From NCBI RefSeq assembly GCF_038023995.1, contig NZ_CP150660.1, positions 928,501 to 992,500 on the forward strand: a stretch of DNA of 64,000 nucleotides, read 5' to 3'. A model generated the notes under the pieces. The model was not told the DNA's origin and made no database searches. It saw only the letters and a list, made by a program, of their open reading frames with translations. The translations under genes and the position numbers were made by a program. Positions 32,437 through 64,000 of the stretch are shown one piece after another. How positions within the stretch are numbered: position 1 is the first letter of the stretch; every line of letters starts with the position of its first letter. Source of the stretch: Polaribacter atrinae (lineage in GTDB: Bacteria; Bacteroidota; Bacteroidia; Flavobacteriales; Flavobacteriaceae).

Positions 32437-33288
32437 TTAGATAAAAAAATTATTAATGTTTGCAACTAAGTTATCCATTGGCTTTTTCACAAAAGATCCA
32501 ATTTTTATTCCGCGTTTATTAGCTTCTATTTTAATATCTTCTTGTAAATAATAAGCAATCGAACCTACAAAATGAATAGGATGCTGTTCTAATTCTTTAC
32601 TATAACACATTATTAGATTATCAAATAATTCAAAAACTCCAACATTTATAATTTTAGCCATAAAGGGATTTGATTTATTTTCAATTAAAAACTTAGCAAA
32701 ACCTGCTAAATATGCACTCGGATTTCCCTCTTCATATAAACTTTTTAAAACAGATTCTAGAGATAAGCTAAAGTTCCTTTTAAATTTCTCGTGTAATTCT
32801 GATGGCATTTTGTTGTAAAAATAAGCTTTTAATAACTTTCTTCCGAAAAAATTCCCACTCCCTTCATCCATAATTGAATACCCAAGAGATACCTGGTGAA
32901 TAATTATATTTTTACCATCAAAATAACAACAGTTAGAACCTGTCCCTAATATACAAATTACTCCTGGAGAAGATGTAGTACCATGAACAGCTGCTGTTAA
33001 ATCTTCTTCTATTTTCACTTTTGCTTTTGAAAAAAAACTAATGAGTACTTTTTCTATTTTTAATTTAGAGTCTTCTCCACCACAACCTGCTCCATAAAAC
33101 AAGACGTTATCGATATTTTCCTTTATACTTTTAAGATCGTTATTTCCATCAATGATTTCAAATATTTGAGAAGCTGTAAGAAGCTGTGGATTTATTCCTT
33201 TTGTTTTTGTTTTTAAAACGACTTCTTTATTTTCTCCTAGAACCACCCAATCAGATTTAGTCGATCCACTATCTGCAATTAGTATCAT
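32437..33288 (-). CDS. N-acetylglucosamine kinase-like BadF/BadG-family ATPase
   Basis: 283-aa ASKHA-fold sugar kinase expected to phosphorylate free GlcNAc (or a related amino sugar) with ATP in the cytoplasm. Motifs: phosphate-1 ADSGSTKSDW at the N-terminus, VLFYGAGCGG, ILGTGSNCCYFDG (phosphate-2) and LGYSIMDEGSG, all typical of the BadF/BadG/BcrA/BcrD subfamily that contains GlcNAc kinases. Length is normal. It is the last gene of the minus-strand arm, 2 bp after the 126-aa unknown, behind the NagB fusion. The neighbourhood supports the amino-sugar assignment; glucosamine kinase is the main alternative. Confidence 0.82.
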   Translation of the reverse strand: MILIADSGSTKSDWVVLGENKEVVLKTKTKGINPQLLTASQIFEIIDGNNDLKSIKENIDNVLFYGAGCGGEDSKLKIEKVLISFFSKAKVKIEEDLTAAVHGTTSSPGVICILGTGSNCCYFDGKNIIIHQVSLGYSIMDEGSGNFFGRKLLKAYFYNKMPSELHEKFKRNFSLSLESVLKSLYEEGNPSAYLAGFAKFLIENKSNPFMAKIINVGVFELFDNLIMCYSKELEQHPIHFVGSIAYYLQEDIKIEANKRGIKIGSFVKKPMDNLVANINNFFI

Positions 33289-33290
33289 AA

Positions 33291-33641
33291 TTAAGATATT
33301 TTATTATATTCATAATTTAAAACATGATTTAAAAGCATTTCTAACCTCATCATCATATTCTGACATATTTTTTCTGACCTTCCTTCTACCTTTATTTCTA
33401 TAAATCTCTTATTAACTTTATTATTAAAATTACTAATTCTAAACTCTCCATTTGGAAAATACACTTTCAGATTTTCAGATTCGTTCATAAGATAGAGATC
33501 AAACTCTCCCGCAACCCAATTCACGAATCTCTCATAAACATCATTAGACTTGTTATCTTGTACTTTTTTTAGAATTAAATATGGGAATTTAGATTTTAAA
33601 CCCTCTATTTTAGAATCTAACTTATCATTCACAGACGTCAT
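33291..33641 (-). CDS. Small hypothetical protein between nagB and the sugar kinase
   Basis: About 116 aa from MTSVNDKLDSKIEGLKSKF; a longer frame from 33671 would overlap nagB by 13 bp and add ten hydrophobic residues. It is soluble, with a mixed alpha/beta pattern (YLILKKVQDNKSNDVYERFV, then GEFDLYLMNESENLKVYFPN). No family is recognised. It lies 17 bp after the nagB fusion and 2 bp before the kinase, so it is firmly in the catabolic operon. It could be a sugar-sensing or accessory protein. Confidence 0.6.
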   Translation of the reverse strand: MTSVNDKLDSKIEGLKSKFPYLILKKVQDNKSNDVYERFVNWVAGEFDLYLMNESENLKVYFPNGEFRISNFNNKVNKRFIEIKVEGRSEKICQNMMMRLEMLLNHVLNYEYNKIS

Positions 33642-33658
33642 ACATAGGTTTAAAAACA

Positions 33659-35587
33659 TTAATAATGCCATCTTACAAACGCTTCCATAGCAGCGTAATG
33701 AGACAACCCTAATTGATCATATAATTCTGCAGTTTCTCTATTTCTGTCTTCTGCACGTTGCCAAAACTCTCTACTATCTGCTCCTTGAAAAACAACACCG
33801 TCTTTTTGAGATTGATGTTTAAAAATTCCTTTTCGTTTTTCTAAAACTTGATCAGGACCCATTGGTACTGCCATTTCTATTTCATCAACTCCCCATTCTT
33901 GCCATGCACCTCTGTATAACCAAACCCAACAATCTTTCATAAATTTCTTAGGTTTTAGTTCTCTTACGGCTGCAAAAATTGCATCTAAACATACTTTATG
34001 AGTACCATGAGGATCTGCTAAATCTCCTGCTGCAAATATTTGATGTGGCTTAATTTTTTCAATTAATTCTTTGGTTATTTCTACATCTCCAACACCAATT
34101 GGGTTCTTTTTTATGGCTCCTGTTTCATAAAAAGGAAGGTTCATAAAATGAATCTGTAAATCTGGCAAACCTATAAAATTACAGGCTGCTCTTGCTTCTC
34201 CTTTTCTGATCAATCCTTTTATATAGCGAACCTCTGGAGTATCTATTTCACTTGCTTTTTTGTTCTTTAAAAAGGTAGCTGCATTCTTGTAAATTGTAGT
34301 TGCTTCAGAATTATCAATTCCGAATTTTTCATTGTAATCACACACAAAACTAGCAAAACGCAATGCTTCATCATCTGCAACCGCAATATTACCAGAAGTT
34401 TGATATCCTAAATGCACTTCATGACCTTGTTCATGCAATCTCTTAAAAGTACCACCCATACTAATGATATCATCATCTGGGTGAGGACTAAAAATTAAGA
34501 CACGTTTCTTAGCAGGTTCTGCTCTTTCTGGTCTTTTACTATCGTCTGCATTTGGTTTTCCACCTGGCCAACCTGTAATGGTGTTTTGTAGTTTATTGAA
34601 TATTTTTATGTTGATGTCATACGCAGGACCTGAGTCTGCTAACAAATCGCTCATTCCGTTTTCTATGTAATCTGCATCAGTTAACATTAAAATAGGTTTC
34701 TTTAAGTTTAGAGCTAAACTTAAAACAGCCTTTCTAATTAATTGATCTGTCCAAACAATTTTTTCTACCAACCAAGGAGTATTAATTCTTGTTAATTTAG
34801 AAGCTGCCGCTTGATCTAAAATAAAAGTTGCATTTCTATGTTCTTGTAAGTAAGATGCAGGCACTAAACTAGTAACTTCTGCTTCTACAGAGGCTTTTAT
34901 AATGTTAGATTTACTTTCTCCCCAAGCCATTAAAATGACTCTTTTAGCTTCCATTATTTTTTTAACTCCTAGAGTAATTGCAGTTCTTGGTGTATTTTCT
35001 AATCCAGAAAAATCGCCACTTGCCGCTACTCTTGTAATGTGGTCTAAGGCAACCAATCTTGTTTTAGAGTTTTGAAGAGATCCCGATTCGTTAAAACCAA
35101 TATGACCATTTCCTCCAATTCCTAAAATTTGTAAATCAATGCCTCCTAAAGCTTCAATTTTTGCTTCATATTGATCACAATAATCTCTAATACTTTCTTT
35201 TGACAATGTTCCGTCTGGAACATGACAATTTTCTGGTAAAATATCTATGTGATTAAACAATTGTTCTTGCATAAAACGAACATAACTGTTTATAGAATCT
35301 GGTTCAATTGGGTAGTATTCATCTAAATTAAAAGACACTACGTTTTTAAAACTTAGGCCTTCTTCTTTATGTAACCTTACCAATTCTGCATACAGACCTT
35401 TTGGTGAAGAACCTGTTGCTAAACCTAAAATACACGGTTGTCTTTGCGATTGTTTTACCTTAATTAGGTTTGCAATTTCTTGTGCAATTGATTTAGCTGC
35501 TGATGTAGAGTCTTCATAAACGATAGTTCCAATATTTTCGAATCTTTTTTCGAAACCTGTTGCTTTGTCTATAGTACTTTTTAACAT
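33659..35587 (-). CDS. nagB: NagB glucosamine-6-phosphate deaminase fused to PIG-L deacetylase domain
   Basis: 642-aa two-domain cytoplasmic protein. Residues 20-285 are a NagB/SugP isomerase domain: LGLATGSSPKGLYAEL binds phosphate, D89-E90 in FNLDEYYP and H162 in GGNGHIGFNE are catalytic. This domain turns glucosamine-6-P into fructose-6-P and ammonia. Residues about 355-600 are a PIG-L/LmbE zinc deacetylase: H369-P-D371-D372 in FSPHPDDDIISMGG, and DPHGTHKVCLDA as the distal His ligand motif. PIG-L proteins remove acetyl groups from GlcNAc conjugates. Similar fusions are known in Bacteroidetes, usually annotated NagB-like. No nagA is seen in the window, so the second domain may do the deacetylation step. 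Both active sites look complete. Confidence 0.9.
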   Translation of the reverse strand: MLKSTIDKATGFEKRFENIGTIVYEDSTSAAKSIAQEIANLIKVKQSQRQPCILGLATGSSPKGLYAELVRLHKEEGLSFKNVVSFNLDEYYPIEPDSINSYVRFMQEQLFNHIDILPENCHVPDGTLSKESIRDYCDQYEAKIEALGGIDLQILGIGGNGHIGFNESGSLQNSKTRLVALDHITRVAASGDFSGLENTPRTAITLGVKKIMEAKRVILMAWGESKSNIIKASVEAEVTSLVPASYLQEHRNATFILDQAAASKLTRINTPWLVEKIVWTDQLIRKAVLSLALNLKKPILMLTDADYIENGMSDLLADSGPAYDINIKIFNKLQNTITGWPGGKPNADDSKRPERAEPAKKRVLIFSPHPDDDIISMGGTFKRLHEQGHEVHLGYQTSGNIAVADDEALRFASFVCDYNEKFGIDNSEATTIYKNAATFLKNKKASEIDTPEVRYIKGLIRKGEARAACNFIGLPDLQIHFMNLPFYETGAIKKNPIGVGDVEITKELIEKIKPHQIFAAGDLADPHGTHKVCLDAIFAAVRELKPKKFMKDCWVWLYRGAWQEWGVDEIEMAVPMGPDQVLEKRKGIFKHQSQKDGVVFQGADSREFWQRAEDRNRETAELYDQLGLSHYAAMEAFVRWHY

Positions 35588-35611: not shown

Positions 35612-36970
35612 TTAATACGTTTCTTTTATCCAATTATAAGGTTTACGCTTTACCCACATACCTCTTGTAAAATCTGGAAAATCTTGAGGTTCTCCATTAT
35701 TTTCAATAGAAGCTTCAGAGAGCGGTGTTACAGCACTCCAAGCTGCAGCATCATAGACATCTATAGGTGGTGCTACATTTTCTTTTACAGATTCTATAAA
35801 GGCATTTAATACAAAAAAGTCCATACCTCCATGTCCTGCTCCAGTAGCCTGTTCTTCATACTTTTTCCATAAAGGATGATCATATTTCTTAAGCCACTCA
35901 CCTGCTTCATCCCAATGGTGTGGTTTAGATTCACCTTCAATATACATGCGGTTACCATCTACTTCCCATAAACCATTAGCTCCTTGCACTCTAAAACCTA
36001 AAGAATATGGTCTTGGTAAATTACAATCGTGAGTTATAATAATGGTTTCTCCGTTAGCTGTTTCAATTGTAGAAGTAATCACATCTCCTTGCTTAAATTT
36101 TAATTTTGCATTAGGATGCTCTTTTCCCCCTTTTTCGATAATATAATTATGCAAACCAATACCTTTAGTAGCATGTGAGGTTAAAGACATAAAACGGTTT
36201 CCTCTATTAATATCACACATTGCAGCAATAGGACCTACACCATGAGTAGGATACACGTCTGCATTTCTTAAAAGTGAGTGTTGTGTGCGCCATTTAGCTT
36301 CCGAATATCCTTTATCACCAAACTCCACACCTCCTCCGTAAGGTTGTTTACCATTGTTAAACTTAACTTCACGTAAATCGTGCTGGTAACCACATCTAAA
36401 ATGAACCAACTCACCAAAAACATTTTGTTTTACCATATTTAAAACTGCAAGTACATCTCTACGATAATTTACGTTTTCTAAAAGCATTAAATGTGTCCCT
36501 GTTTCTTCATGAGTATTCACTAAGTCCCAACACTCTTCCATTGTATTTGCGGCAGAAACCTCTAACCCCGTATATTTCCCTGCTTTCATGGCGTCTACCG
36601 CCATTCTTGTATGCCATAACCAAGGTGTAGAAATTACTACAGCATCTACTTCTTTTAATGCTAGTAAGTTTTTATAATCATAATCTGAATTCCCAAAAAC
36701 TTGTGGTTTTTTAAACTTTCTATCAGCTACCATTTTTAGCGCAATATCTATTCGTTTAGAATCTACATCACAAATAGCAGTAACTTCTAAATCTTTTCTA
36801 TGCATAGCATTGCTTAAATGCATAATACCCCTTTCTCCAATACCAATAAAAGCTAACCTAACTTTTTTGGTAGAACTACTATCTACAGCACCAAACGCCA
36901 TGTTTGGTAGCATTGTTAATCCAGCACCCAAAAGCGCTGTTTTTTTTACAAAATTTCTTCTAGAACTCAT
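35612..36970 (-). CDS. GH109-like NAD-dependent glycosidase (Gfo/Idh/MocA fold)
   Basis: 452-aa exported protein with a twin-arginine signal (SSRRNFVKKTALLGAGLTM). The Rossmann domain has RLAFIGIGERGIMH, with a second Asp at ICDVDSKR for NAD ribose. The C-terminal domain carries GGGVEFGDKGYSEAKWRTQH and YPTHGVGPIAAMCDINRG, close to characterised GH109 alpha-N-acetylgalactosaminidases. GH109 uses tightly bound NAD to cleave alpha-GalNAc, as on blood-group A and mucin glycans. An oxidoreductase role cannot be excluded by eye. It lies 32 bp after the symporter and 24 bp before nagB, so is part of the amino-sugar operon. Confidence 0.82.
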   Translation of the reverse strand: MSSRRNFVKKTALLGAGLTMLPNMAFGAVDSSSTKKVRLAFIGIGERGIMHLSNAMHRKDLEVTAICDVDSKRIDIALKMVADRKFKKPQVFGNSDYDYKNLLALKEVDAVVISTPWLWHTRMAVDAMKAGKYTGLEVSAANTMEECWDLVNTHEETGTHLMLLENVNYRRDVLAVLNMVKQNVFGELVHFRCGYQHDLREVKFNNGKQPYGGGVEFGDKGYSEAKWRTQHSLLRNADVYPTHGVGPIAAMCDINRGNRFMSLTSHATKGIGLHNYIIEKGGKEHPNAKLKFKQGDVITSTIETANGETIIITHDCNLPRPYSLGFRVQGANGLWEVDGNRMYIEGESKPHHWDEAGEWLKKYDHPLWKKYEEQATGAGHGGMDFFVLNAFIESVKENVAPPIDVYDAAAWSAVTPLSEASIENNGEPQDFPDFTRGMWVKRKPYNWIKETY

Positions 36971-37002: not shown

Positions 37003-39621
37003 CTAAAAACTTTCTACCTTTTGCTTATTAGGTAATATCAAACTAAAAATATATCCAAAACAAAAACAAGAAGCTACACCTAAAAATGAATACATTAAAA
37101 AATTGATTTCAGTAAATACACTTATATACCAAATAAAAATAGCACTTACCAACAAGCCTAATAACGTTCCTTTTGCATTGGCTTTTTTAGTAAGCATCCC
37201 TAAAAGAAACATACCCCCTAAACCTCCTGTAAAAAGACCTAAAAAACGATAAAATTGATCCCAAAGAGATTTAATATTAGAACCAGCCATCCAAAGTGCC
37301 AACAACACACCTAAAACACCTGTTACTAAAGTTACTATCCTTGCTATTTTTAAAAGATTTACATCTGGCATATTAGGTTTAAAATGCATGTGAAAATCGT
37401 TGCAATACGCTGTAGAAACAGAATTTAAACTACTACTAATACTAGACATTGCTGCAGAAAAGATACCTGCTACCAATAAACCAGAAACTCCTACTGGTAA
37501 TTCTCTAACAATATACCAAGGAAAAATAGAATCGTTATTTGAAATTGCAGGCGATAATTTTTCTGGCATTTCTGTATAAAAAACAAACAAGAGTGTACCT
37601 AAACCAAAAAATATTATTGTTGCTGGTAGCGTAAGTACTGCATTCGTGTAAAGCGTTTTTTGAGATTCTTTTACACTAGAACTTGTTAAGAAACGTTGTA
37701 CTATAGTTTGGTCTGTACCCTGAGTAACCATTGCAGAAGCAAGCCCTCCAATAAATACAACCCAAAAAGTAGAATCTGTAAAATTCATCTCAAAATTAGC
37801 TATATTGAACTTATCCCTTTCAGATGCATAGGTTATCATATCTCCAAAAGAAGTTTCTGTATGTAACATAATCCATACTACCGCTAATACACTTCCTCCA
37901 AGAAGCACAACTACTTGCATTACATCCGTCCAAATAACTGCTTCAATACCTCCAAAAGTGGTATAAAAAACACAAAGTATTCCCATTATTAAAATACTGG
38001 TTTCTACAGGAATCCCCGTTACAATAGAAATTGCTAAAGAAGGTAATAATAATACAATACCAATTCTTCCTAATTGAAATAATATAAAAGATAAACTACC
38101 AAAAGCACGTGCTGTATAATTAAAGCGATCTTCTAAGTATTCGTAAGCTGTTTTTATTTTTAACCTATTAAAAAAAGGAATAAAAATAAAAGCAATAACT
38201 GGCGTTATTAAAATTGCCGTAATATTTAAGAAAAAGAAAGACCAATCTGTTACAAAGGCTTTGGCAGGAATAGCCATAAATGTAATAGCACTTAGTAAAG
38301 TACCAAAAACACTTAAACCTGCTGCCCACCAAGGTATTCTACCTCCACCTGTAAAGTAGTCTTCTGTAGATTTTTGTTTACGAGCAAAATAAAGACCAAT
38401 TAATACAGAGATCAATAAGTACAAAGCCAGTATAGTATAATTAACTATTCCGAAAGGATGATCAGCATCCCCAATTTTAAAAATTTGCACACCTGGTGTC
38501 CGTATCCCAGGAGAAACTTCTCCAGAAACAATTACAAATTCATCATTATTTTTAAACGAAAGTGCTGTTACAGGTATTTTTGTTGTAATACGATCATAAA
38601 CAAACCATTTCTTTGTTATGGTGTTATAAGCTAAAATATCTTTAGAAAAACCTTCATGATTATTTAAAATAGAGTCTCTTCTTTTTTTCAATTGGTTCAC
38701 GATAGAATCATCTTGTGTAGCTCCCATTTGTAGAGAAATATTTTCCAACTCATCAAAAAGAGACTCATCACTACCGCCATAAGTCATAATATGCATAGAC
38801 CCCATCGTTTCTGCTGAAGCACCCATTAAAACTCTAGGTTTTCCATCTATTTCGAGATCTCCTTCTTCTTGCCATTTTTTCTCCTTAAAATCATAAGATA
38901 AATAACTTGTAAGTGTTTTAGATTTTTTCCCGGCCACTTCATTTCTTCCACCAATAACAAATAATTTTTTATTGGTTTGTGTTTCTTGAACCGCTATACT
39001 ATTAAGTGCTCTGGGAGCACCAGGAAAATCTGCTAATTTTATCCAATTGTTCTCTTTTAGATTTAGTCTATAAAATAAGTTTGTGCTATTCTTAACATTA
39101 TTATTACCACCTACTACATATACAAAATCATCTACTACAACGGCAGATGAAAATGCTAAAGGTTCAGGAAGGTTTGGGTATTCTGAAATCTCAACATCTT
39201 TGGTAGATTTATTATAAGACAAAAGCAGCACTTTATCACTTATAAGAGTTTTATTATTACCCCCAATACTTAAAACTCCTTTTGGAGTAGCAACTGAAGC
39301 TGCATATCCTAAAGGAATAGGTAATTGTTTTGTAGATAATCGCCATTCGTTGTTTTCAAAAATATAAATACGCTTACTCCATACTTTATCACCACCCTCC
39401 CATGGCAAACCATCAGGAAAATTAGCTCCACCTGCAGCTAAAAACACTCCATTATGAGTACCACCCAACATACCCGCAAATCCTAACGATTCTGTAGAAG
39501 TATTATCTGCTGGTAAACTTGGTAAATCGGTAATACTTAATTTGGATATTTCTTGTCCGTAAAAAGGAATTAAAGTTAAAACTATAAATAGAATTAAGAC
39601 TAAACTTTGATTTTTTTTCAT
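37003..39621 (-). CDS. Kelch mutarotase / sodium-solute symporter fusion
   Basis: 872-aa protein. After a signal peptide (ending LIPFYG) residues about 30-370 form a Kelch beta-propeller with GGTHNGVFLAAGGANFPDG, VYVVGGNNN and LFVIGGRNE. This is the NanM/cyclically-permuted mutarotase type that interconverts sialic acid or related sugar anomers. Residues about 390-870 are a sodium/solute symporter (SSS): a first helix YTILALYLLISVLIG, YFTGGGRIPWWAAGLS, AIPAKAFVTDW, and about 13 helices. The propeller is periplasmic and would hand the right anomer to the transporter. It is the first gene of the catabolic operon and divergent from the GH29 gene. Without sialidase or NanA in view, GlcNAc or GalNAc is as likely a substrate as sialic acid. 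Confidence 0.88.
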   Translation of the reverse strand: MKKNQSLVLILFIVLTLIPFYGQEISKLSITDLPSLPADNTSTESLGFAGMLGGTHNGVFLAAGGANFPDGLPWEGGDKVWSKRIYIFENNEWRLSTKQLPIPLGYAASVATPKGVLSIGGNNKTLISDKVLLLSYNKSTKDVEISEYPNLPEPLAFSSAVVVDDFVYVVGGNNNVKNSTNLFYRLNLKENNWIKLADFPGAPRALNSIAVQETQTNKKLFVIGGRNEVAGKKSKTLTSYLSYDFKEKKWQEEGDLEIDGKPRVLMGASAETMGSMHIMTYGGSDESLFDELENISLQMGATQDDSIVNQLKKRRDSILNNHEGFSKDILAYNTITKKWFVYDRITTKIPVTALSFKNNDEFVIVSGEVSPGIRTPGVQIFKIGDADHPFGIVNYTILALYLLISVLIGLYFARKQKSTEDYFTGGGRIPWWAAGLSVFGTLLSAITFMAIPAKAFVTDWSFFFLNITAILITPVIAFIFIPFFNRLKIKTAYEYLEDRFNYTARAFGSLSFILFQLGRIGIVLLLPSLAISIVTGIPVETSILIMGILCVFYTTFGGIEAVIWTDVMQVVVLLGGSVLAVVWIMLHTETSFGDMITYASERDKFNIANFEMNFTDSTFWVVFIGGLASAMVTQGTDQTIVQRFLTSSSVKESQKTLYTNAVLTLPATIIFFGLGTLLFVFYTEMPEKLSPAISNNDSIFPWYIVRELPVGVSGLLVAGIFSAAMSSISSSLNSVSTAYCNDFHMHFKPNMPDVNLLKIARIVTLVTGVLGVLLALWMAGSNIKSLWDQFYRFLGLFTGGLGGMFLLGMLTKKANAKGTLLGLLVSAIFIWYISVFTEINFLMYSFLGVASCFCFGYIFSLILPNKQKVESF

Positions 39622-43636: not shown

Positions 43637-43646
43637 TCTTAATATT

Positions 43647-44603
43647 ATGATAAAAACATTCATATCATCTACCTTAGTTCTTGTTTCATTTATGGGGTTT
43701 TCTCAATCTGAAATTACAGAAAATGAAATTAAAGACCACATTATATTTTTAGCTTCAGAAAAAAATGCAGGTAGGTACCCTGGTACAAAAGCAAACAGAA
43801 AAGTTGTAAAATATATTGCAAAAGATTTTAAGAAACAAGATCTTATTCCTTTTGAAAAAGGATACAAACAAAAATTTAAAGCTCGTTTACGTGTAGAAAA
43901 AGGCGAGAATGAAAAACCTTTAGCAAAAACAAGTAACGTGGTGGGCTATATAGAAGGTACCGACCCAATCTTAAAAAATGAATATATTATTTTAGGAGCA
44001 CATTACGATCATTTAGGTTTGGGAGGACCATCTTCTAAATCAGAAAACAAAAAAACCATTCATTATGGTGCCGATGATAATGCTAGTGGAACTGCAGCTC
44101 TTTTAGAAATTGCAGAAAAAATAGCAGCTAACAAAAAAGACTTAAAACGTAGTGTATTATTTATTGCTTTTGGAGCCGAAGAGCAAGGTTTATTAGGAAG
44201 CAAGTTTTTTATAGACAACGCTCCTATTCCACTTTCAAAAATTAAATTAATGATAAATATGGACATGGTGGGCAGGTTAAATACAGAAAAACACGTCTAT
44301 ATAAACGGTGCTGGTACACTTCCAGAAGGGGTTGCATTTATGCAAAATTTAGGAGAATCCTTAGAGTTAAGGCCTGTTGTTCATGCTGGCTCTGTTGGTG
44401 GATCGGATCATGTTTCTTTTTTTAAAAAAGACATCTCCGTTTTAGGGATGCATACAGGTGCACATCCACAATATCATAGACCAGAAGATACGGTAGATTT
44501 AATTAATGTTCCAGGACAAAAAAAAGTGTGTGACTATATTTATAAAACAATAATGGAACTTGCAACTACAAATTATAAAATGGAATTTATTCCACAAAAA
44601 TAA
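43647..44603 (+). CDS. Exported M28-family zinc peptidase
   Basis: About 318-aa aminopeptidase-type protein with a signal peptide (MIKTFISSTLVLVSFMGFSQ). Two-zinc M28 ligands are present: ILGAHYDHLG, HYGADDNASGTAA (Asp), FGAEEQGLLG (Glu pair), MINMDMVGR (Asp) and HTGAHPQYH (His). The start at 43647 removes a 13-residue extension that would overlap the GH20 gene. It lies 10 bp after that GH20 stop, inside a chain of glycosidases. Peptidases of this kind would trim the protein part of a glycoprotein. Glutaminyl cyclase and carboxypeptidase members also exist in this fold; an aminopeptidase is the likelier call. Confidence 0.88.
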   Translation: MIKTFISSTLVLVSFMGFSQSEITENEIKDHIIFLASEKNAGRYPGTKANRKVVKYIAKDFKKQDLIPFEKGYKQKFKARLRVEKGENEKPLAKTSNVVGYIEGTDPILKNEYIILGAHYDHLGLGGPSSKSENKKTIHYGADDNASGTAALLEIAEKIAANKKDLKRSVLFIAFGAEEQGLLGSKFFIDNAPIPLSKIKLMINMDMVGRLNTEKHVYINGAGTLPEGVAFMQNLGESLELRPVVHAGSVGGSDHVSFFKKDISVLGMHTGAHPQYHRPEDTVDLINVPGQKKVCDYIYKTIMELATTNYKMEFIPQK

Positions 44604-52089: not shown

Positions 52090-52100
52090 AATTGAATACA

Positions 52101-56589: not shown

Positions 56590-56639
56590 GATTTTTAAAT
56601 TGAAACGTTCTTTTATTTTTAATAAGTAGTCATTATTTT

Positions 56640-57476
56640 TTATTCTACAAGCTCCCAAACCTTCACGTAATCTATTGCCATTTCATAAGGAAGGTTTTCT
56701 GTTGAAGTAACCTTCCCTGGCCAATAATAAATTCCTGATTGCCCTTTATCTGCAAGTGCGTGATTTAAAATAATGTAGAAATCGGTTTCAAAAGGCCATC
56801 TTTTTTCGAATTCTCCTTTAGATTCATGCACCATTGTTAAAATATCATTGACATAAAATTCAATGCGGTTTGGTAATTTTATAATTCCATACGTATTGTA
56901 AGCATCTACATTTATAGGAGCTGTTGTTGCAAAAGAATTTTTCATGGCTTCACCGTCTGTTTGATGTACTACTTGATGCACAAAATCATCATTATTTAGA
57001 CGTTCCATAATATCAATTTCACCACCATTTGGCCAACCTTTGTAAATTTCATTTTGTGGCATCAACCAAATTGCTGGCCAACCTCCTTGTCCAGCGGAAT
57101 TGAATTTTGCTTTCACTTCAATTTTTCCGTATTTAAAACTGAATTTATCTTGGCTTCGTATAGCACCCGTTTCTGGCAAATCGGTTTTAGTATTCCAACG
57201 CGCCCTCATGTGTAAATTCCCGTTTTTAACCTCTGCCAATGTAGGATCTTTTACCACATATCTATTCCAAGCAGCACCACTAGTTTGTGTTGGTAAACTC
57301 GTCCAATATTTAGTGTTATATGCATCTCCATTAAACTTGTCTTCGAAAACTAAATTATAACGTATTCCATTTTCACTATTGTTTATATTTTTATTTACCG
57401 AACATGAGGCAAGTAAAAGAAAAAAAAAGGTTCCAAGGCAAACTTGTACAAACTGTAATTTAAAATTTATTTTCAT
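56640..57476 (-). CDS. GH16 endo-glycanase lipoprotein
   Basis: 278-aa lipoprotein (lipobox FFFLLLASC) with the GH16 jelly-roll. The catalytic motif is E153-I-D155-I-M-E158 in GGEIDIMERLN: nucleophile, helper Asp and acid/base. Aromatic subsite residues lie in WPAIWLMPQNEIYKGWP and HQVVHQTDGEAM. GH16 enzymes cut internal beta-1,3 or beta-1,4 bonds of glucans, galactans or poly-LacNAc. Next to GH2, GH20 and sulfatases, an endo-beta-galactosidase acting on keratan-sulfate or O-glycan poly-LacNAc is the best-fitting reading; laminarinase or agarase-like activity is the alternative. It lies 5 bp downstream of the sulfatase. Confidence 0.88.
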   Translation of the reverse strand: MKINFKLQFVQVCLGTFFFLLLASCSVNKNINNSENGIRYNLVFEDKFNGDAYNTKYWTSLPTQTSGAAWNRYVVKDPTLAEVKNGNLHMRARWNTKTDLPETGAIRSQDKFSFKYGKIEVKAKFNSAGQGGWPAIWLMPQNEIYKGWPNGGEIDIMERLNNDDFVHQVVHQTDGEAMKNSFATTAPINVDAYNTYGIIKLPNRIEFYVNDILTMVHESKGEFEKRWPFETDFYIILNHALADKGQSGIYYWPGKVTSTENLPYEMAIDYVKVWELVE

Positions 57477-57481: not shown

Positions 57482-59077
57482 TTATTTTTTATTATATAAT
57501 TCAATATAATGATTGTCTAATGTTTCTGAATCTTTATATTTTTTCCTTGTTTCTTTTAATTTCTGTTTCATTTCGAGAACCACTTCAGCATAAGTAGGAT
57601 CATTAATTATATTATTAATTTCTTTTGGATCCTTTTTACTATCATACAGTTCCCATTCATTCACATCATGGTAAAAGTGAATCAATTTAAATTCTTTCGT
57701 TGCAACACCGTAATGTCTTTTAACAGCATGCTCTGCAGGATATTCGTAATAATGATAATAGACAGCTTCTCTGTCCCAAGTTTCTTTTTTTCCTGTTAAT
57801 AAAGGCACTAGACTTTCCCCTTGCATCTCTTTTGGGGCATCAACCCCGGCAATTTCAAGAAAAGTTTGAGCAAAATCTAAATTCTGTACCATTTCATCTT
57901 CTGTAATTCCTGGTTTTATTTGATTAGGCCATTTAATTAGAAGTGGTGTTTTAAAAGACTCGTTATACATAAAACGTTTGTCGAACCAACCATGTTCCCC
58001 TAAATAAAACCCTTGGTCTGAAGTATACACTACCAACGTGTTATCAGCAAGTTTTTCATCATCCAAATAATCTAGTATATGTCCTACATTATCATCAACA
58101 GAAGCTATTGTACCTAAATAGTCTTGCATGTAACGTTGGTATTTCCAAACAGTTAATAAAGAATCATTCATGGTTGGATATCGCTTTTTAAAATCTTCAT
58201 TTATAGGTCCATAAACAGCATCCCAAGCCGCTCTTTGCTCCGGATTCATTCCGTCAATACTTTGTCCTAAATTACTCCATTCTTTTATTCGTAACTCCTT
58301 AATAGTTTGTGACGTCAATTTGTTATCATTGGTTAAAGACATGTGTTTAAAAATTCCCATTTGCGCAGTTTTAGACGCAGTTCCTCTTGTTTTATAATCA
58401 TCAAACAGCGTTGCTGGTAAAGGGAATGTCTTTTTAGTGTACTCCGTAAAATACTTTTTACTCGGCAACCAAGCTCTGTGTGGTGCTTTGTGCAAATACA
58501 TTAACATAAAAGGTTTTTTAGGATCTCTTCTATTTTTCATCCAATCTAAAGTAAGATCGGTTGTAATATCTGTTACATAACCGTTAATAATGGTATCTCC
58601 TTTTTGTGTGATAAATTTCGGATTGTAATACGCTCCTTGACCTGGTAAAATTTTAAATTCATCAAATCCTTTAGGATTATTACCAAAGTGTAACTTACCA
58701 AACATAGCAGTTTGATACCCTGCTTTTTGAAGCAATTGAGGAAACGTAACATTAGTAGTATCAAACTTACTTAAGTTATCTATTTTCCCGTTGATATGAC
58801 TGTGTTTACCTGTTAATATTACAGCTCTTGAAGGTGCACAAATAGAGTTGGTTACACTCGCATTTGTAAACAACATTCCTTCTTTTGCAATACGATCTAT
58901 GTTTGGTGTTTGTATCAAAGTATCATCATAAGCACTTATAGCTTGATACGCATGATCGTCGGACATGATGAAAATAATGTTTGGTTTTTGTGTGTTTTCT
59001 TTTGATGATTTTTCAGTTTTGCATCCTACAGTTAAAAGGGCTACAACAAAAAAGGTAATATGTTTAAATAATTTCAT
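57482..59077 (-). CDS. S1-family sulfatase (Cys-type), copy 2, possibly GlcNAc-6-sulfatase-like
   Basis: 531-aa lipoprotein (lipobox ALLTVGC). The formylglycine motif is C80-A-P-S-R in NSICAPSRAVILTGK. Metal ligands are in FIMSDDHAYQA and VYTSDQGFYLGEHGW. AMFGKLHFG, FDEFKILPGQGAYYNPKF and LHKAPHRAWLP resemble the group that contains GlcNAc-6-O-sulfatases, as I recall; this is from memory. The gene is 18 bp after the third sulfatase and 5 bp before GH16. It would release 6-sulfate from GlcNAc before GH20 action if the assignment holds. Confidence 0.88.
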   Translation of the reverse strand: MKLFKHITFFVVALLTVGCKTEKSSKENTQKPNIIFIMSDDHAYQAISAYDDTLIQTPNIDRIAKEGMLFTNASVTNSICAPSRAVILTGKHSHINGKIDNLSKFDTTNVTFPQLLQKAGYQTAMFGKLHFGNNPKGFDEFKILPGQGAYYNPKFITQKGDTIINGYVTDITTDLTLDWMKNRRDPKKPFMLMYLHKAPHRAWLPSKKYFTEYTKKTFPLPATLFDDYKTRGTASKTAQMGIFKHMSLTNDNKLTSQTIKELRIKEWSNLGQSIDGMNPEQRAAWDAVYGPINEDFKKRYPTMNDSLLTVWKYQRYMQDYLGTIASVDDNVGHILDYLDDEKLADNTLVVYTSDQGFYLGEHGWFDKRFMYNESFKTPLLIKWPNQIKPGITEDEMVQNLDFAQTFLEIAGVDAPKEMQGESLVPLLTGKKETWDREAVYYHYYEYPAEHAVKRHYGVATKEFKLIHFYHDVNEWELYDSKKDPKEINNIINDPTYAEVVLEMKQKLKETRKKYKDSETLDNHYIELYNKK

Positions 59078-59095: not shown

Positions 59096-60655
59096 TTAGA
59101 TTGTTTCTAAAGCTTCAATTATAAAAGAGCTATTTTCTGGTGTAGTATGTTCTTTTTTAATGATTTCAAAGAATTTTTCAAGCAATTCTGGATGTTGCTC
59201 CATCACATTATTTTGTTCTTGAATATCAATATCTAGGTCATACAATTCTACTTCCTTGTTTCCTGTTTTAATATTTTTCCAAACCATTTTCCACTTGCCC
59301 ATTCTTACGGCAACTTGTCCTTTATATCCTGCAAATTCCCAATACAAATACTCATGTGCCTCTTGTTTGTTTTCATTTGTAAGTGCATTGTAAAAACTAA
59401 TTCCATCACTTTCATAATCGTTTTTTACGTTTGCAATTTCATTAAAAGTTGGTAATACATCATAAAATGCCGATATATGATTGCTTTTAGAGCCCGCTTC
59501 TATTTTAGCTGGCCAAGTAGCAATCATCGGTACTCTAATTCCACCTTCATAGGTAAAACCTTTTACCCTTCCGTAGTTATTCTTGAAGATTCCGCTACTG
59601 TTAAACCATTCAGAATCTGCCCCACCATCACCAGGACTCGCAGGCCCATTGTCTGATGTAAAAATGATTAAAGTATTCTCATACAAGCCTTCTTTCTTTA
59701 AATAAGTAACCAACTTCCCTACGTTTTCATCTAAATAAGAAACCATTGCTGCATAGGTTGCACGTGGGTTTCTAGCCGGAAAATAACTTCCTTTATTTTT
59801 GTGATAATAAGGTTTTTCATCTCCAAATTTTTTCACATAATAGTCTACCCATTTTTTTGGTGCTTGCAAGGGCACATGCGGAATAGGGCTTGCCCAGTAC
59901 ATAAAGAAGGGTTCTTTTTTGTTTTTTTCAATAAACCCCATCATTTTATCAAAAATTAAAGTCGGACTATAATCTGGTTGATAAAACTTCTCGTATGTTT
60001 TTTCATCTAATGGATTACCATCATTCCCTGTGCCTTCATGAGGTGCAATCGTGTCATTCTTTAAGTGAAAACGATGGTCATTTTCATATAAATGCACTGG
60101 TGCATAGGTATGTGCTTGTCTTTGGCAATTGTATCCGAAGAAGTAGTCGAAGCCCATTTCTGTAGGAATAGATTGTGTTTGCGGCGCTCCTAACCCCCAT
60201 TTACCAACAATACCTGTTTTGTAATTTGCTGATTTTAATAATTGGGAAATCGTTGTTGTGTTTTTAGGCATTGGCCTTTGACCTTCTAAAGTAGAATCTC
60301 TTAGCATAGCTGTATAACTCCAAACATCTCCTCTTTCTGCCCACTCGTCATTTCCGCGAATACTTACGCTTCCACCGTGTTTTCCAGTTAAAAGTGAAGC
60401 TCTTGCTGGCGCACAAACTGGTGCTCCTGTATAATGTTGGGTAAATAACATGCCTCCTTTTGCCAAAGCATCAATATTTGGAGTTTCAATTTTTGTTTGT
60501 CCATAAACGCCTAAATCTCCATAACCTAAATCATCTGCTAAAATATAAATGATGTTTGGTTTTTGATTTTTTTCTTCTTCGGATTGTTTTTTTGATGAAC
60601 AACTCACTAATGAAATTAATATAATAAGTGTTGTTAGAATGCGAAATGCTTTCAT
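59096..60655 (-). CDS. S1-family arylsulfatase-like sulfatase (Cys-type), copy 3
   Basis: 519-aa lipoprotein (lipobox LVSC). The formylglycine motif is C81-A-P-A-R in PVCAPARASLLTGKH. Metal ligands are in ILADDLGYGDLGVYG and FTSDNGPASPGDGGAD. The GVYG...GKWGLG...PHVPLQAP and GIRVPMIATWP segments match the arylsulfatase A/GALNS-like branch of S1, which includes galactose and N-acetylgalactosamine sulfatases. The exact sulfate position is not assigned. It sits 2 bp after the GH2 gene, so sulfate removal could prepare galactose ends for that enzyme. Confidence 0.88.
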   Translation of the reverse strand: MKAFRILTTLIILISLVSCSSKKQSEEEKNQKPNIIYILADDLGYGDLGVYGQTKIETPNIDALAKGGMLFTQHYTGAPVCAPARASLLTGKHGGSVSIRGNDEWAERGDVWSYTAMLRDSTLEGQRPMPKNTTTISQLLKSANYKTGIVGKWGLGAPQTQSIPTEMGFDYFFGYNCQRQAHTYAPVHLYENDHRFHLKNDTIAPHEGTGNDGNPLDEKTYEKFYQPDYSPTLIFDKMMGFIEKNKKEPFFMYWASPIPHVPLQAPKKWVDYYVKKFGDEKPYYHKNKGSYFPARNPRATYAAMVSYLDENVGKLVTYLKKEGLYENTLIIFTSDNGPASPGDGGADSEWFNSSGIFKNNYGRVKGFTYEGGIRVPMIATWPAKIEAGSKSNHISAFYDVLPTFNEIANVKNDYESDGISFYNALTNENKQEAHEYLYWEFAGYKGQVAVRMGKWKMVWKNIKTGNKEVELYDLDIDIQEQNNVMEQHPELLEKFFEIIKKEHTTPENSSFIIEALETI

Positions 60656-60657: not shown

Positions 60658-63093
60658 TTAGTATTTTTTAGTACTTATATTTATTTTTGCTGTTTTTAAA
60701 CCTTTACCTGAAACTGTTAAATCTATTTCCCCTTGTTCTTCATCAGATTGTACCAAAACCACTAATTTTCCGCTAAACAATTTCATAGTTGGTACATGAA
60801 ACATTTCTAGCGAAGTAGCATCGCCATTACTAGCTGCTCTAAACATACCATCTCCTTTTACTTTAAATTTTAATTGATTGGTTGCTGTGGGACAAGGAAT
60901 TCCGTTTTTATCAACTACAGAAACCGTAACAAAAGCTAAATCTTTTCCGTTAGCTTTTAATGTTTTTTGGTCTGATTCTAAAATTAGCTTGTAGGGTTTA
61001 CCAGCCGTTTTTATTTCTTTTTCTGATGCAACTTTTCCTTCATCATCAAAGGCAACCACTTTTATAGTTCCTGGTTCATATTTTACGTCCATCCACATTA
61101 AACGGTAGCGATTTTTAGGAGAACTATTATTCTTTTTCTGGATCCCCATACTTTTTCCGTTTACAAAAAGTTCTGCACTGTCATAACTTGTGTAGACAAA
61201 AACGGGGGTAATTTCTCCTTCTCGTCCTTCCCAATTCCAATGTGGCAACATGTGTAAAGTTTCTTCTTTTGTATTCCAACGACTGCGATATAAATAATAG
61301 CGGTCTTTTGGTAAACCTGCCAAATCGTTAATTCCGAAGTATGAACTTCGAGACGGCCATTTGGTATCATAAGGTGTTGTTTCTCCTAAATAATCGAAAC
61401 CTGTCCAAACAAACTCACCAATAACCCAAGGTTTATCATCTTGTAAAACAGAATCTTCATCAGGAATATTAGACCAGCTGCAAGCTTCTAAATCGTAAGA
61501 AGATGACTGAAAATCGTCATATTGTTTCATTTTAGCTTCTATGACTGGGAATTTATAAATTCCTCGTGAACTTACTGTAGAAGCTGTTTCTGAACCTAAA
61601 ATTAAACCTTGCGGAAAAGATTCGTACGCTTCTTCATATAAATGTGTACGATAATTTAAACCCGGAATATCTAATAAAGCCCCAAAACCAGATGCCATGG
61701 TAGCTTTTACTTGATCCATCCCCACAGTTACAGGTCTTGTTGGATCTTCTCTATGAAAAATATCTTGCAACCATTTAGCTCGTTTTGCGCCATCACTTCC
61801 CCATTGATCTGGCACCTCGTTTCCAGAACTCCACATAACAATACTTGGGTGGTTTCTGGTTGCATGTACCAAATTGACAATATCTTTTTCTGCATCTTCT
61901 TCAAAAAAACGATGGTACCCATTTTCTACTTTTGGTTTTGCCCATTCATCAAAACTTTCCGCTAAAAACAAGAATCCCATTTCATCACTTAATTCTAGTT
62001 GTTCTAAAGAAGGCATATTGTGTGCGCTTCGAATGGCATTTACGCCCATATCTTTTAAAATACGTAATTGTCTTCGGATAGCAGATTTGTTTACAGCCGC
62101 TCCGATAGGTCCCAAATCGTGATGCAAACAAACTCCTTTAAACTTTGTAATCTCTCCGTTTAAACTGAAGCCTTTTTCTGCTTCGTATTTGATGGATCTA
62201 ATTCCGAAACGTGTTGAAATTTCATCTTTTAGAATAGTTCCTTTGTATACTTGAGAAATAGAAGTGTATAAATAAGGCGTTTCCGGACTCCATAAATTCG
62301 GATTGTTGACAGCTATATTTTGCTCAAATTCATTTCCATAAATGGACGAAGTTTTATTGGTAGTAATTAGACTTCCTTGTGCATCTAAAATTTTGGTAAC
62401 AAGAGTCAATCCTTCTCCTAAAACTTTCGTTTTTACGTTTATTTTCGCTAATTCTTTGGTAACTATAGGCGTTGTTATAAACGTCCCCCATTGCTTAATA
62501 CTTTCTTTATTCTTGGTAATAATTCGAACATTTCTGTACAAACCAGCTCCAGGATACCAGCGTGAAGACAAACCTTTATTTGTTAATTTAACGGCTAATG
62601 TGTTTTTTTTATTTGCTAGAATATGCTCAGTAATATCAAAGTAGAAATAACTGTATCCATAGTTCCGACTTCCTATTTTTTTTCCATTCAGAAAAATTTC
62701 GGGTTCACTCATCGCACCTTCAAATAATAGTATTACCTTTTTATCTTTGTTGAAATTTGGCAACGAAAACTCATTTCTGTACCAACCAACACCAATGTAT
62801 GGCAACGCACCTGTTCTACCAGTTTTTTCGGTAGGGACTTTTTCTCCATTCTGAACAATGGCAACCATTTGTTTGTCTATTTCTTTATCAAAAGGACCTT
62901 TAATTGCCCAATCATGCGGAACAACAACCGTTTCCCATTTAGAATCATCAAAAGAAATATCTTGTGCATTTTTTAGATCACCTTTGGTGAATTTCCAGTT
63001 TTTTTCTAAAGTGAGTACCTCTCTTACATTGTTTTGCGCCAGTATTGAAACTGTAAAAAAAAGAATATAGAAAGTTGATATCAGATTTTTCAT
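60658..63093 (-). CDS. Beta-galactosidase-like GH2 enzyme
   Basis: 811-aa exported enzyme (signal ending VSILAQ). It has the jelly-roll sugar-binding domain, an Ig-like domain and a GH2 barrel. The acid/base is E426 in MWSSGNEVPDQW and the nucleophile is E560 in VIGEFVWTGFDYLGE. RSAHNMPSLEQLELSDEMG marks the entrance. The C-terminus has the DUF4982-like sandwich (FVYTSYDSAELFVNGKSM) and a further Ig-like domain (FVTVSVVDKNGIPCP). Beta-galactosidase is the most common activity of this architecture; beta-glucuronidase or mannosidase are less likely given the neighbours. It starts the visible minus-strand arm after a 430-bp gap. Confidence 0.88.
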   Translation of the reverse strand: MKNLISTFYILFFTVSILAQNNVREVLTLEKNWKFTKGDLKNAQDISFDDSKWETVVVPHDWAIKGPFDKEIDKQMVAIVQNGEKVPTEKTGRTGALPYIGVGWYRNEFSLPNFNKDKKVILLFEGAMSEPEIFLNGKKIGSRNYGYSYFYFDITEHILANKKNTLAVKLTNKGLSSRWYPGAGLYRNVRIITKNKESIKQWGTFITTPIVTKELAKINVKTKVLGEGLTLVTKILDAQGSLITTNKTSSIYGNEFEQNIAVNNPNLWSPETPYLYTSISQVYKGTILKDEISTRFGIRSIKYEAEKGFSLNGEITKFKGVCLHHDLGPIGAAVNKSAIRRQLRILKDMGVNAIRSAHNMPSLEQLELSDEMGFLFLAESFDEWAKPKVENGYHRFFEEDAEKDIVNLVHATRNHPSIVMWSSGNEVPDQWGSDGAKRAKWLQDIFHREDPTRPVTVGMDQVKATMASGFGALLDIPGLNYRTHLYEEAYESFPQGLILGSETASTVSSRGIYKFPVIEAKMKQYDDFQSSSYDLEACSWSNIPDEDSVLQDDKPWVIGEFVWTGFDYLGETTPYDTKWPSRSSYFGINDLAGLPKDRYYLYRSRWNTKEETLHMLPHWNWEGREGEITPVFVYTSYDSAELFVNGKSMGIQKKNNSSPKNRYRLMWMDVKYEPGTIKVVAFDDEGKVASEKEIKTAGKPYKLILESDQKTLKANGKDLAFVTVSVVDKNGIPCPTATNQLKFKVKGDGMFRAASNGDATSLEMFHVPTMKLFSGKLVVLVQSDEEQGEIDLTVSGKGLKTAKINISTKKY

Positions 63094-63522
63094 TGGTTTT
63101 ATTTTACTCTTTTATTTATTATTAATAGACAGAGATATAGTTTATAGAAGCTTCTTACCTCCTAAAATAATGCTTCCTTTAGTAACTTTTAAAATATCAT
63201 TTAATTATAAAAAAGAATCACCTTTAAAACATCTCAATATAATTTTGTGATAAACAAAATCACTAGTTCTCGCAGTTTGCAAACTAGAATTGATAAAATA
63301 GGTTGTCAGTTCACGTGAAATTACTATCTCAAAAATTTTGCCTCAAATAATCAATTTTACTTCATTTTTTTTAAGCTGTTCAACTGAACTTAAAACTAAC
63401 TTTATGAGATTCCTCCTATCGTCGGAAAGACACTACGAACAAAGTTTCGCAAAACTTAATGAAAACAATCAGAATATAGAGAACCTTCATTCCATTAAAC
63501 TTCAATCTAAATGACGTAAACT
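63094..63522. other. Intergenic gap between GH2 and GH27
   Basis: No gene. A degenerate inverted copy of the flavobacterial repeat core lies at 63405-63431. TTCACGTGAA (63310-63319) is a 10-bp palindrome and GTGAT...ATCAC a small hairpin at about 63246-63263; either could be an operator for the GH2 operon. The gap is the only break in the minus-strand arm large enough for a promoter. Confidence 0.4.
63405..63431 (-). repeat. Degenerate half-copy of the GTCATTCCGA...GGAATCTC repeat
   Basis: Read on the minus strand: GTCTTTCCGACGATAGGAGG followed by AATCTCA. It shares the ends GTC-TTCCGA and GAGGAATCTC with the cores at 8634-9187, but is solo and without the palindromic second half. Confidence 0.6.
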
Positions 63523-64000
63523 TTATTTATTCTGAAACACATTAAATGGTTTTGAAGTTCCATCTATTGTTAAAACTACTACTCCGTGAGGAGCTACTTC
63601 AAAGGTCCAAGTTTCTGTTGTTGTTTTATCATAGTCTTTTTTAGCCCAAACATCTCTAAAAGTATACCCTTTTGAAGCATCTAACCCTACTTGATCTAAA
63701 TCAAAAGAAATATTTGCTATTTTGTTTGACCTGTTCAATAAAGTTACTGCTACTTTACCACTCATCGTAGATACTAATGGTTTTGCCCAAACTTCTAAAT
63801 CGCCATGATCTACCAACCTTCTTGCTTGGTAAACCAACGGATCTTGATTTAATGCAATTATTTCTTTATTAGTTAAAATATCAATCGTTTGCTGGCTCAT
63901 ATCTCTTAAATCGTTACCAGCTAACAAAGGAGAACACATCATAGACCACATGCTAAAATGTGTTTTGTCTTCTTCAAAACTCATTCCTCTACCTACTTGT
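63523..64000 (-). CDS. GH27 alpha-galactosidase-like protein, C-terminal part
   Basis: The frame is open to the right edge (reading QVGRGMSFEEDKTHF), so the gene continues past 64000 and the Met at 63984 is internal. The visible 159 residues hold the end of the GH27 barrel (FSMWSMMCSPLLAGNDLRDM, TNKEIIALNQDPLVYQA) and the C-terminal beta-sandwich (VAVTLLNRSNKIANISFDLD, TFRDVWAKKDY). GH27 includes alpha-galactosidases and alpha-N-acetylgalactosaminidases. The catalytic Asp residues are outside the window, so the choice cannot be made. The beta-sandwich closes with HGVVVLTIDGTSK, a normal end. Confidence 0.85.
   Translation of the reverse strand, partial: QVGRGMSFEEDKTHFSMWSMMCSPLLAGNDLRDMSQQTIDILTNKEIIALNQDPLVYQARRLVDHGDLEVWAKPLVSTMSGKVAVTLLNRSNKIANISFDLDQVGLDASKGYTFRDVWAKKDYDKTTTETWTFEVAPHGVVVLTIDGTSKPFNVFQNK

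Follow-up and report, generated by a model that had tools for sequence, protein, structure and literature searches.

The polysaccharide utilisation loci (PULs) of marine Bacteroidota are mostly interpreted as algal. Here we describe a locus of the flavobacterium Polaribacter atrinae that probably serves the use of sulfated animal-type glycoprotein glycans, and whose left part lies in the window, i.e. the stretch of 64,000 nucleotides that was analysed (positions 928501-992500 of contig NZ_CP150660.1, here G000:C1, which at 4,010,129 bases makes up the whole genome).

Several described systems resemble parts of this locus. In gut Bacteroides, peptide:N-glycosidases (PNGases) of group 1 have an Asp at the core-fucose position, like the PNGase of our locus; SusC/SusD, GH29, GH92 and GH130 genes are found near group-2 PNGase genes, as here, and some PNGase genes are orphans or lie in small separate loci (PMC9522356). 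The GH16 subfamily-3 mucin O-glycanases (PMC7419316), of which BACCAC_03717 is the best match, share with the GH16 protein of the locus the EIDIME motif and a lipoprotein-like N-terminus; BACCAC_03717 also falls on its side of the tree. The Bacteroides thetaiotaomicron sulfatases BT3177, BT1622 and BT3796 (PMC10154612, PMC10154620) are each the best or second-best PDB match of one of the window sulfatases, and BT3796 itself is unlinked to a mucin PUL in the review (PMC10154620/PMC10154612). Among flavobacteria, Tenacibaculum maritimum has a sialic-acid PUL with a NanM-symporter fusion, NanA, an epimerase and SusC/SusD, as in the Polaribacter locus; T. maritimum and Capnocytophaga both harvest host glycoproteins, and in the same account T. 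maritimum is without the Gpd N-glycan operon and Capnocytophaga, with its Gpd complex, feeds on mammalian cells (PMC5561996). The PNGaseRz operon of Runella zeae, in parallel to our locus, combines a PNGase with fucosidases, a mannosidase, GH18 and an asparaginase; PNGaseRz selects core alpha-1,3-fucose, and the passages on the operon name no sulfatases, GH16 or sialic-acid genes for it (PMC12381499). Finally, the fish-gut isolate Flaviramulus ichthyoenteri Th78 is a marine flavobacterium with predicted sialidases, sulfatases and fucosidases for mucus; its description lists these genes genome-wide, without a locus, and the sialic-acid carrier is of the TRAP type rather than a NanM-symporter fusion (PMC4324048).

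Gene content and extent of the locus

In our view the P. atrinae locus is likely a superlocus for glycoprotein use, made up of linked modules. Its centre would be N-glycans whose antennae are sulfated, fucosylated, sialylated and in part poly-N-acetyllactosamine (poly-LacNAc); the GH16-sulfatase module may take mucin O-glycans or keratan sulfate as co-substrates. The original prediction, made from the window, had proposed sulfated animal-type glycans with the profile of mucin O-glycans or keratan sulfate. The enzyme families that it named are all present in the window, with Pfam matches throughout and the right motifs in GH16, GH20, GH84, GH123 and the three S1 sulfatases, and the sulfated animal-type glycoprotein glycans are retained in our reading. 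Their stated target, mucin O-glycans or keratan sulfate, is not supported as such, because PNGase F, four GH92, GH18, GH130 and an asparaginase, i.e. N-glycan machinery, lie outside the window, with a sialic-acid module attached. The genes of the locus in the window are the following (window coordinates, strand; S1 subfamilies are assigned by the nearest PDB chains, and lipoprotein-like, signal-peptide-like and Tat-like N-termini were read by eye here and throughout):

32437-33288, minus: BadF/NagK-like sugar kinase, weak match (PF01869 22.4 bits, NagK model 22.9 bits, both below cut-off)
33291-33671, minus: 126-aa protein overlapping NagB, in a kinase-hypothetical-nagB run; no Pfam or NCBIfam match at E 0.001
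33659-35587, minus: glucosamine-6-phosphate deaminase (NagB) fused to a PIG-L deacetylase-like domain (NF002557 1057.6 bits; PF01182, PF02585)
35612-36970, minus: GH109 alpha-N-acetylgalactosaminidase with an Arg-Arg Tat-like N-terminus (PF21252 and Rossmann fold; 521 bits to PDB 2ixa)
37003-39621, minus: NanM-like mutarotase fused to a Na+/solute symporter (PF24996, PF00474; TIGR03548 under cut-off)
39834-41921, plus: GH29 alpha-L-fucosidase with an F5/8-type C domain (PF01120, PF00754; 567 bits to PDB 8ayr)
41954-43636, plus: GH20 beta-N-acetylhexosaminidase a (PF00728; HIGGDE)
43608-44603, plus: M28 family peptidase (PF04389)
44792-46462, plus: GH20 beta-N-acetylhexosaminidase b (PF00728; HIGGDE)
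46467-48764, plus: GH20 c with Fn3-associated and PA14 domains (PF00728, PF13287, PF07691; HIGGDE)
48751-50325, plus: S1 sulfatase nearest S1_16, for 4-O-sulfated galactose or N-acetylgalactosamine (Gal/GalNAc-4S) (CTPTR)
50329-52089, plus: GH123 beta-N-acetylgalactosaminidase (PF13320; 530 bits to 5l7r; MDE motif)
52092-54344, plus: GH84 beta-N-acetylglucosaminidase (NF041654 1123 bits, over cut-off; FFDD)
54937-56658, minus: GH20 beta-N-acetylhexosaminidase d (PF00728; HVGGDE)
56640-57476, minus: GH16 endo-beta-galactosidase candidate with a lipoprotein-like N-terminus (EIDIME; 6t2r best match)
57482-59077, minus: S1 sulfatase nearest S1_11, for 6-O-sulfated N-acetylglucosamine (GlcNAc-6S) (CAPSR)
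59096-60655, minus: S1 sulfatase nearest S1_20 BT1622 (Gal/GalNAc-3S) (CAPAR)
60658-63093, minus: GH2 beta-galactosidase, GalB-like (NF041463 877 bits, just under the cut-off of 900)
63523-64000, minus: GH27 alpha-galactosidase cut by the window end (PF16499, PF17801); whole gene L001:1523-2776 = G000:C1:992023-993276, window-equivalent end 64776

The HxGGDE motif is present in all four GH20 enzymes of the window, and lipoprotein-like or signal-peptide-like stretches stand at the N-terminus of most of the glycosidases. The NanM-symporter fusion is probably a sialic-acid carrier rather than a GlcNAc carrier, because a like fusion sits in the sialic-acid PUL of T. maritimum.

The whole locus spans G000:C1:960937-1056854 (95,918 bases, 54 listed genes), about three times the length of its portion inside the window, which cuts through it. 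Its left edge is sound, being preceded by an element of the IS3 type and then some 1.7 kb free of any open reading frame (ORF) longer than 70 aa. The element, directly left of the locus at 29598-30760, comprises a 93-aa ORF (30479-30760) and a transposase (29598-30443). The right-hand coordinate, 64000, is a mere window edge, and in the right-hand flank, whose DNA was fetched and most of whose longer ORFs were scanned with Pfam and NCBIfam, the locus runs on to G000:C1:1056854 with these genes (G000:C1 coordinates; single numbers are starts):

993350-996466 and 996491-999847: GH2
1000072-1004939: first SusC/SusD pair (SusD1 1000072-1001808, SusC1 1001820-1004939)
1005169-1006350: PNGase F (PF09112 and PF09113)
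1006368: endonuclease/phosphatase-like
1007212: GH97
1009267, 1011502, 1020149 and 1030158: GH92
1013970 and 1015362: GH29
1016683: GH20
1019117: Asparaginase_2
1022459: major facilitator superfamily (MFS) carrier, over the gluP cut-off and just under that of fucP
1023819: GHL10
1024963: GH18
1026105: CBM9
1027254: GH130 (its end coordinate is an estimate)
1028255: sodium/solute symporter (SSF)
1032668-1034479: histidine kinase and LytTR regulator
1034611-1039666: SusD2/SusC2
1039850: partial GH20 with a sialate-esterase domain
1043354: GH27
1044552: GDSL protein with a sialate-esterase domain
1046667-1047800: BNR sialidase-like
before the next gene: partial creatininase-like ORF, outside the 54-gene count
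1048605: N-acylglucosamine 2-epimerase (NF052547, over cut-off)
1049872: GntR
1050584: YhcH
1051101: DHDPS/NanA-like
1052110-1056854: SusD3/SusC3

The three adjacent SusC/SusD pairs, all beyond the window, accompany carbohydrate-active enzymes, which is the arrangement that defines a PUL; SusC1 and all SusD were recognised by Pfam, SusC2 and SusC3 as Plug-domain matches in the genome scan. The gene order is compact, with gaps of at most 100 bp in 39 of 47 same-strand neighbour pairs. The genome's six GH20 matches all fall inside the locus (2.4% of the genome), although the sixth is a partial domain; under a crude uniform model such clustering would arise by chance with a probability of about 8e-9. 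This sixth domain (L003:11850-15344) covers part of the profile without HxGGDE, is fused to the sialate-esterase domain and may be non-catalytic. The sole BNR_2 sialidase match of the genome also lies in the locus, as do three of its 13 sulfatase-domain matches.

The N-glycan genes

The genes expected of an N-glycan PUL are present: a release enzyme (PNGase F, GH18), four GH92 and a GH130. The PNGase scores 402 bits to 4qhb and 390 bits to 3ks7, which we take to be group-1 structures of the gut PNGase study, against 215 bits to PNGF-II (4r4z) and 233 bits to 7zgn. In the alignment it has Asp (WIDTW) where 4r4z and 7zgn both have Gly, and the enzyme of a second Polaribacter genome, G075, has the same residue; the Gly of 4r4z was equated with G380 of the published numbering by counting alignment residues, with a 29-residue offset assumed. 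With Glu118 or Asp instead of Gly, core alpha-1,3-fucose is blocked (PMC9522356). By this residue the PNGase is of predicted type I, which would exclude core alpha-1,3-fucose, so that the Asp speaks against core-fucosylated glycans of plant or insect type as the target.

The GH16 enzyme and the sulfatases

BACCAC_03717 (6t2r) is the top match of the GH16 protein both by sequence and by fold. In a tree that held five laminarinase/glucanase references and one O-glycanase reference, the protein is split from the former and stands on the same side as 6t2r with support of 100/100. The original prediction would have suffered from a placement among agarases or porphyranases; no chain so titled occurs among the 40 significant PDB matches, and a kappa-carrageenase reaches 28 bits. 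GH16 enzymes of this sort cut poly-LacNAc on mucin and keratan sulfate alike (PMC7419316), and because they act on either substrate the candidate activity does not separate O-linked from N-linked chains.

All three sulfatases of the locus contain the C-x-P-x-R maturation motif. The one at 48751-50325 scores 588 bits to 6uss and 583 to BT3796 (7oza), against 264 to the kappa-carrageenan S1_16 enzyme 9fo1. The one at 57482-59077 scores 542 bits to BT3177 (7p24, GlcNAc-6S) and 537 to 5g2v, against 332 to the L-galactose-6-sulfatase 7lha; this last score is of note, since about half of S1_11, chiefly aquatic members, lack the region for reading the N-acetyl group and recognise L-galactose (PMC10154612). 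The third, at 59096-60655, scores 563 bits to BT1622 (7ana) and 350 to BT1636 (7an1), with a loop as in BT1622 (PDB-to-protein and activity names from Table 4 of PMC10154620). The three, whose placement in algal-polysaccharide subfamilies would have told against the original prediction, are nearest gut enzymes for GlcNAc-6S, Gal/GalNAc-3S and Gal/GalNAc-4S, which we take as their predicted activities, well above the carrageenan or L-galactose sulfatases.

GH123 enzymes act on beta-linked GalNAc of glycolipids, and one might ask whether gangliosides or glycosaminoglycans are the substrate, degraded via GH123, GH20, GH84 and the sulfatases. BT1622-type enzymes prefer 3S-GalNAc (PMC10154612), which would suit such a use. 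However, this explanation leaves PNGase F, GH92 and GH130 without a role, no polysaccharide lyase or GH88 family is among the Pfam matches reported for the locus, and we regard it as very improbable.

The GH16 and sulfatase genes bear more directly on another alternative, in which the window part is a PUL of its own for mucin O-glycans or keratan sulfate (SusC1/SusD1 with GH2, GH27, sulfatases and GH16), with the N-glycan genes adjacent by chance. The placement of GH16 beside the O-glycanase in tree and fold speaks for it. The GH109 protein is nearest an alpha-GalNAcase, 2ixa, titled alpha-N-acetylgalactosaminidase in the PDB, which we take to be the blood-group-A enzyme of Elizabethkingia; an M60 domain elsewhere in the genome (G000:C1:2700973-2701752) could belong to a mucin-type peptidase. 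B. thetaiotaomicron employs sulfatases of the S1_20 and S1_11 types in using mucin (PMC10154612). On the other hand, complete use of keratan sulfate would need a 6S-Gal sulfatase of the S1_15 type, and none of the three locus sulfatases, to which our classification applies among the 13 matches of the genome (the other 10 lie elsewhere), is nearest S1_15. Nor is any enzyme specific for O-glycan cores or mucin peptides among the families reported for the locus; a search for GH101 gave no match, though its controls were silent too.

Relatives of the locus in other genomes

PNGase F matches occur in five of 58 genomes of the genus, this one included; those of G013 and G059 give nothing over the 110-bit limit when compared with our PNGase. 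In G075, 40 of the 54 locus genes are matched at 65% identity or more within 71-156 kb of a contig (85 kb), in rearranged order (the stretch searched was 30-165 kb, and the best non-overlapping matches of at least 120 bits were kept). G075 keeps PNGase, four GH92, GH18, GH130, three sulfatases, GH123, GH109, the sialidase-like and NanA-like proteins and the carrier, and there S1_11 directly faces GH123. Its whole genome has no GH16 match at E 0.001, and the stretch searched has none for GH20d, GH84, GH29a, GH20a, GH29c, GH2c, SusD1, AspGA, YhcH, NagB, the 126-aa protein or the kinase; the SusC1 match is 30% only. Because GH16, GH20d, GH84 and SusD1 are without a match and SusC1 is matched so poorly, SusC1/SusD1, GH16, GH20d and GH84 appear to form a module that is optional.

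The GH16 protein has 87% identity to its counterpart in Polaribacter sp. IC073, with no match above 38% in the 35 other genomes of the genus searched, and in a plasmid search with it all 115 records were below 60% identity. The named members of its clade include Gelidibacter, Flavobacterium, Algoriphagus and Echinicola, not gut Bacteroides. A neighbour scan covered 80 GH16 loci and others, many distant ones being without such neighbours. In Gelidibacter (L027), GH2-GH27-GH2-S1_20-S1_11-GH16 occur in identical order at 73-84% identity; Pontibacter, Rufibacter, Carboxylicivirga and Maribacter loci have partial sets of sulfatases, GH29, GH20, GH84 or asparaginase. In G013 and G059, GH109 with S1_20 and GH16 relatives with GH29 stand at separate places; the GH16 there (L118, L121) is a different one that also falls on the side of the O-glycanase in the tree and has GH29 and GDSL/SASA-like genes as neighbours. 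In L124 (G028:C1:916001-936000), MFS, AspGA, GH92, GH20 and PNGase occur together, with no GH16 or sulfatase match in that 20 kb.

The separate mucin or keratan sulfate PUL gains from these comparisons in two ways. On the strand of the GH2-GH27-sulfatase-GH16 run, SusC1/SusD1 are the genes immediately upstream of it, and in seven loci from other Bacteroidota (L028, L029, L032, L036, L037, L052, L066) their relatives likewise stand a short way upstream of GH16; this favours a separate module. Moreover, G075 retains the N-glycan part without GH16 and, in the stretch searched, without matches for SusD1, GH2c, GH20d, GH84 and GH29a. However, G075 also keeps GH2b-GH27a-GH2a-S1_20-S1_11 beside the N-glycan genes in the absence of GH16, so that the sulfatases go with both modules. 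GH16 and PNGase are, in addition, found on contigs of equal size, presumably the same contig, in at least four cases (136829, 331742, 110542, 598597), and two further PNGase contigs (127897, 859438) equal in size, and presumably are, those of L027 and L060, the GH16 of L060 belonging to a distant clade. On balance we regard an independent mucin or keratan sulfate PUL as an unlikely, though serious, competitor of the N-glycan-centred superlocus.

The proposed pathway and its weighing

From gene content, gene order, motifs and nearest characterised relatives we infer substrates, order of steps, cell location, the pairing of SusC/SusD with modules and a marine-animal source as follows. SusC1/SusD1 would go with the GH2-GH27-sulfatase-GH16 run, SusC2/SusD2 and the regulator with the N-glycan genes, and SusC3/SusD3 with the sialic-acid genes. 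N-glycans or glycopeptides would be freed by PNGase F and/or GH18 and imported via the SusC/SusD pairs. Sialic acid could then be removed by the sialate-esterase-like proteins and the sialidase, fucose by GH29, alpha-Gal and alpha-GalNAc caps by GH27 and GH109, and 3-, 4- and 6-O-sulfate on Gal, GalNAc or GlcNAc by the three S1 sulfatases. GH16 would make internal cuts in poly-LacNAc, and GH2, GH20, GH84 and GH123 would trim the antennae; the mannose core would be dismantled by the four GH92 and GH130, and the glycosyl-Asn or peptide end by the asparaginase and the M28 peptidase. NanA, the N-acylglucosamine 2-epimerase, the NanM-SSF and MFS carriers and NagB would lead the products to central metabolism. 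The natural source may be a marine animal, such as fish, eggs, mucus, gelatinous plankton or a mollusc.

Several observations weigh against this reading. The tree separates GH16 from glucanases, but a constrained topology in which its clade joins them is not rejected (AU p 0.088); the identity of the protein is 33% with BACCAC_03717 and 30-35% with glucanases, and its fold Z to 6t2r, 30.7, is just 1.7 above that of the best laminarinase. Among the N-glycan genes, the asparaginase has Asparaginase_2 as its one match over cut-off, with beta-aspartyl-peptidase matched below its own, and GH18 scores 153 bits with a chitinase model against 20 with Endo H, neither of which reaches its cut-off. Pfam cut-offs are passed by the sialidase-like, NanA-like and SASA proteins, but their scores are far under those of NCBIfam, and the GDSL-SASA protein partly matches an acetylxylan-esterase model. 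GH97 and the creatininase-like protein suit no obvious step. The profile search gave no match for the anaerobic sulfatase maturase TIGR03942; in favour of the reading, the formylglycine-generating enzyme (FGE) family PF03781 has six matches at five places, and sulfatase maturation is likely via the FGE-type rather than the anaerobic route. The SusC1/SusD1-GH16 association recurs in other Bacteroidota without PNGase in view, is missing in G075, and may have its own substrate.

Lastly, algal high-mannose N-glycans would likewise use PNGase, GH92 and GH130, and the target could be an algal or planktonic N-glycoprotein, or another algal sulfated glycan, with animal-type enzymes acting on alga-derived chains. 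GH92- and sulfatase-rich Polaribacter PULs have been tentatively tied to algal glucuronomannan, perhaps glycoprotein (PMC6298971), and particle-attached bloom communities are higher in host-glycan genes, partly from Polaribacter (PMC10877868). Yet no GH88 and no alginate, ulvan or fucoidan lyase family is among the Pfam matches reported for the locus. An algal target must also account for the sialidase-like, NanA-like and epimerase genes, GH109, GH123, the GlcNAc-6S-type sulfatase and the O-glycanase-type GH16, for which we know of no obvious use on known diatom N-glycans. We consider this explanation improbable.

Within the preferred reading of a superlocus centred on N-glycans, it is tempting to go further and see in this one locus an end-to-end pathway for N-glycans of marine animals that are sulfated, sialylated and blood-group-like, with N-linked, keratan-sulfate-like poly-LacNAc among them. 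The pathway would have evolved in modular fashion from a core block and the SusC1/SusD1-GH16-GH20-GH84 module. The core N-glycan, sulfatase and sialic-acid block would be common to this genome and a sister Polaribacter, and the poly-LacNAc module would recur partly in distant Bacteroidota. This joint proposal is tentative, and we would rate it somewhat below an even chance.

Other features of the window

The window also contains features outside the locus, and no Rfam match in its 64 kb.

10429-13708: HmuY-like protein adjoining a TonB-dependent receptor; a PepSY-flavodoxin protein is close by (16657-18855), and the group likely serves haem/iron uptake
14670-16142: protein of 490 aa rich in ankyrin repeats
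24603-29327: alpha-amylase-domain protein of 1574 aa, whose C-terminal end resembles a type IX secretion sorting domain (by eye)

Comparison with known systems

In the literature that we searched, chiefly open-access, we found no description of this locus or of a PNGase/GH16 glycoprotein PUL from Polaribacter, which does not prove that none exists. If the further reading of an end-to-end pathway is true, there would be an animal-glycoprotein guild within a genus known for algal polysaccharides. A coherent 96-kb locus for animal-type sulfated glycoproteins would suggest a carbon source in fish mucus, eggs, gelatinous plankton or molluscs. It hints that the mucus, eggs or tissue of animals may also feed some ocean bacteria supposed to live on algae, and gene sets of this kind offer a testable, genome-based way to separate animal feeders from alga feeders. 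The predicted type-I PNGase, the three putative sulfatases for N-acetylhexosamine or Gal and the endo-galactosidase candidate form an enzyme set of interest.

Loci for N-glycans, mucin and sialic acid are already known, and this one is notable for its size, integration and marine setting. In contrast to gut Bacteroides, P. atrinae has one 96-kb block that includes three sulfatases, GH16, GH109, GH123 and a sialic-acid module. Compared with B. thetaiotaomicron, its three sulfatases cluster with a PNGase and are likely matured by FGE-type enzymes. Its GH16, a candidate endo-beta-galactosidase at 33% identity to BACCAC_03717, belongs to a clade of its own whose named members are not gut Bacteroides. 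Unlike T. maritimum and Capnocytophaga, it unites the N-glycan, sialic-acid and sulfatase genes in one locus.

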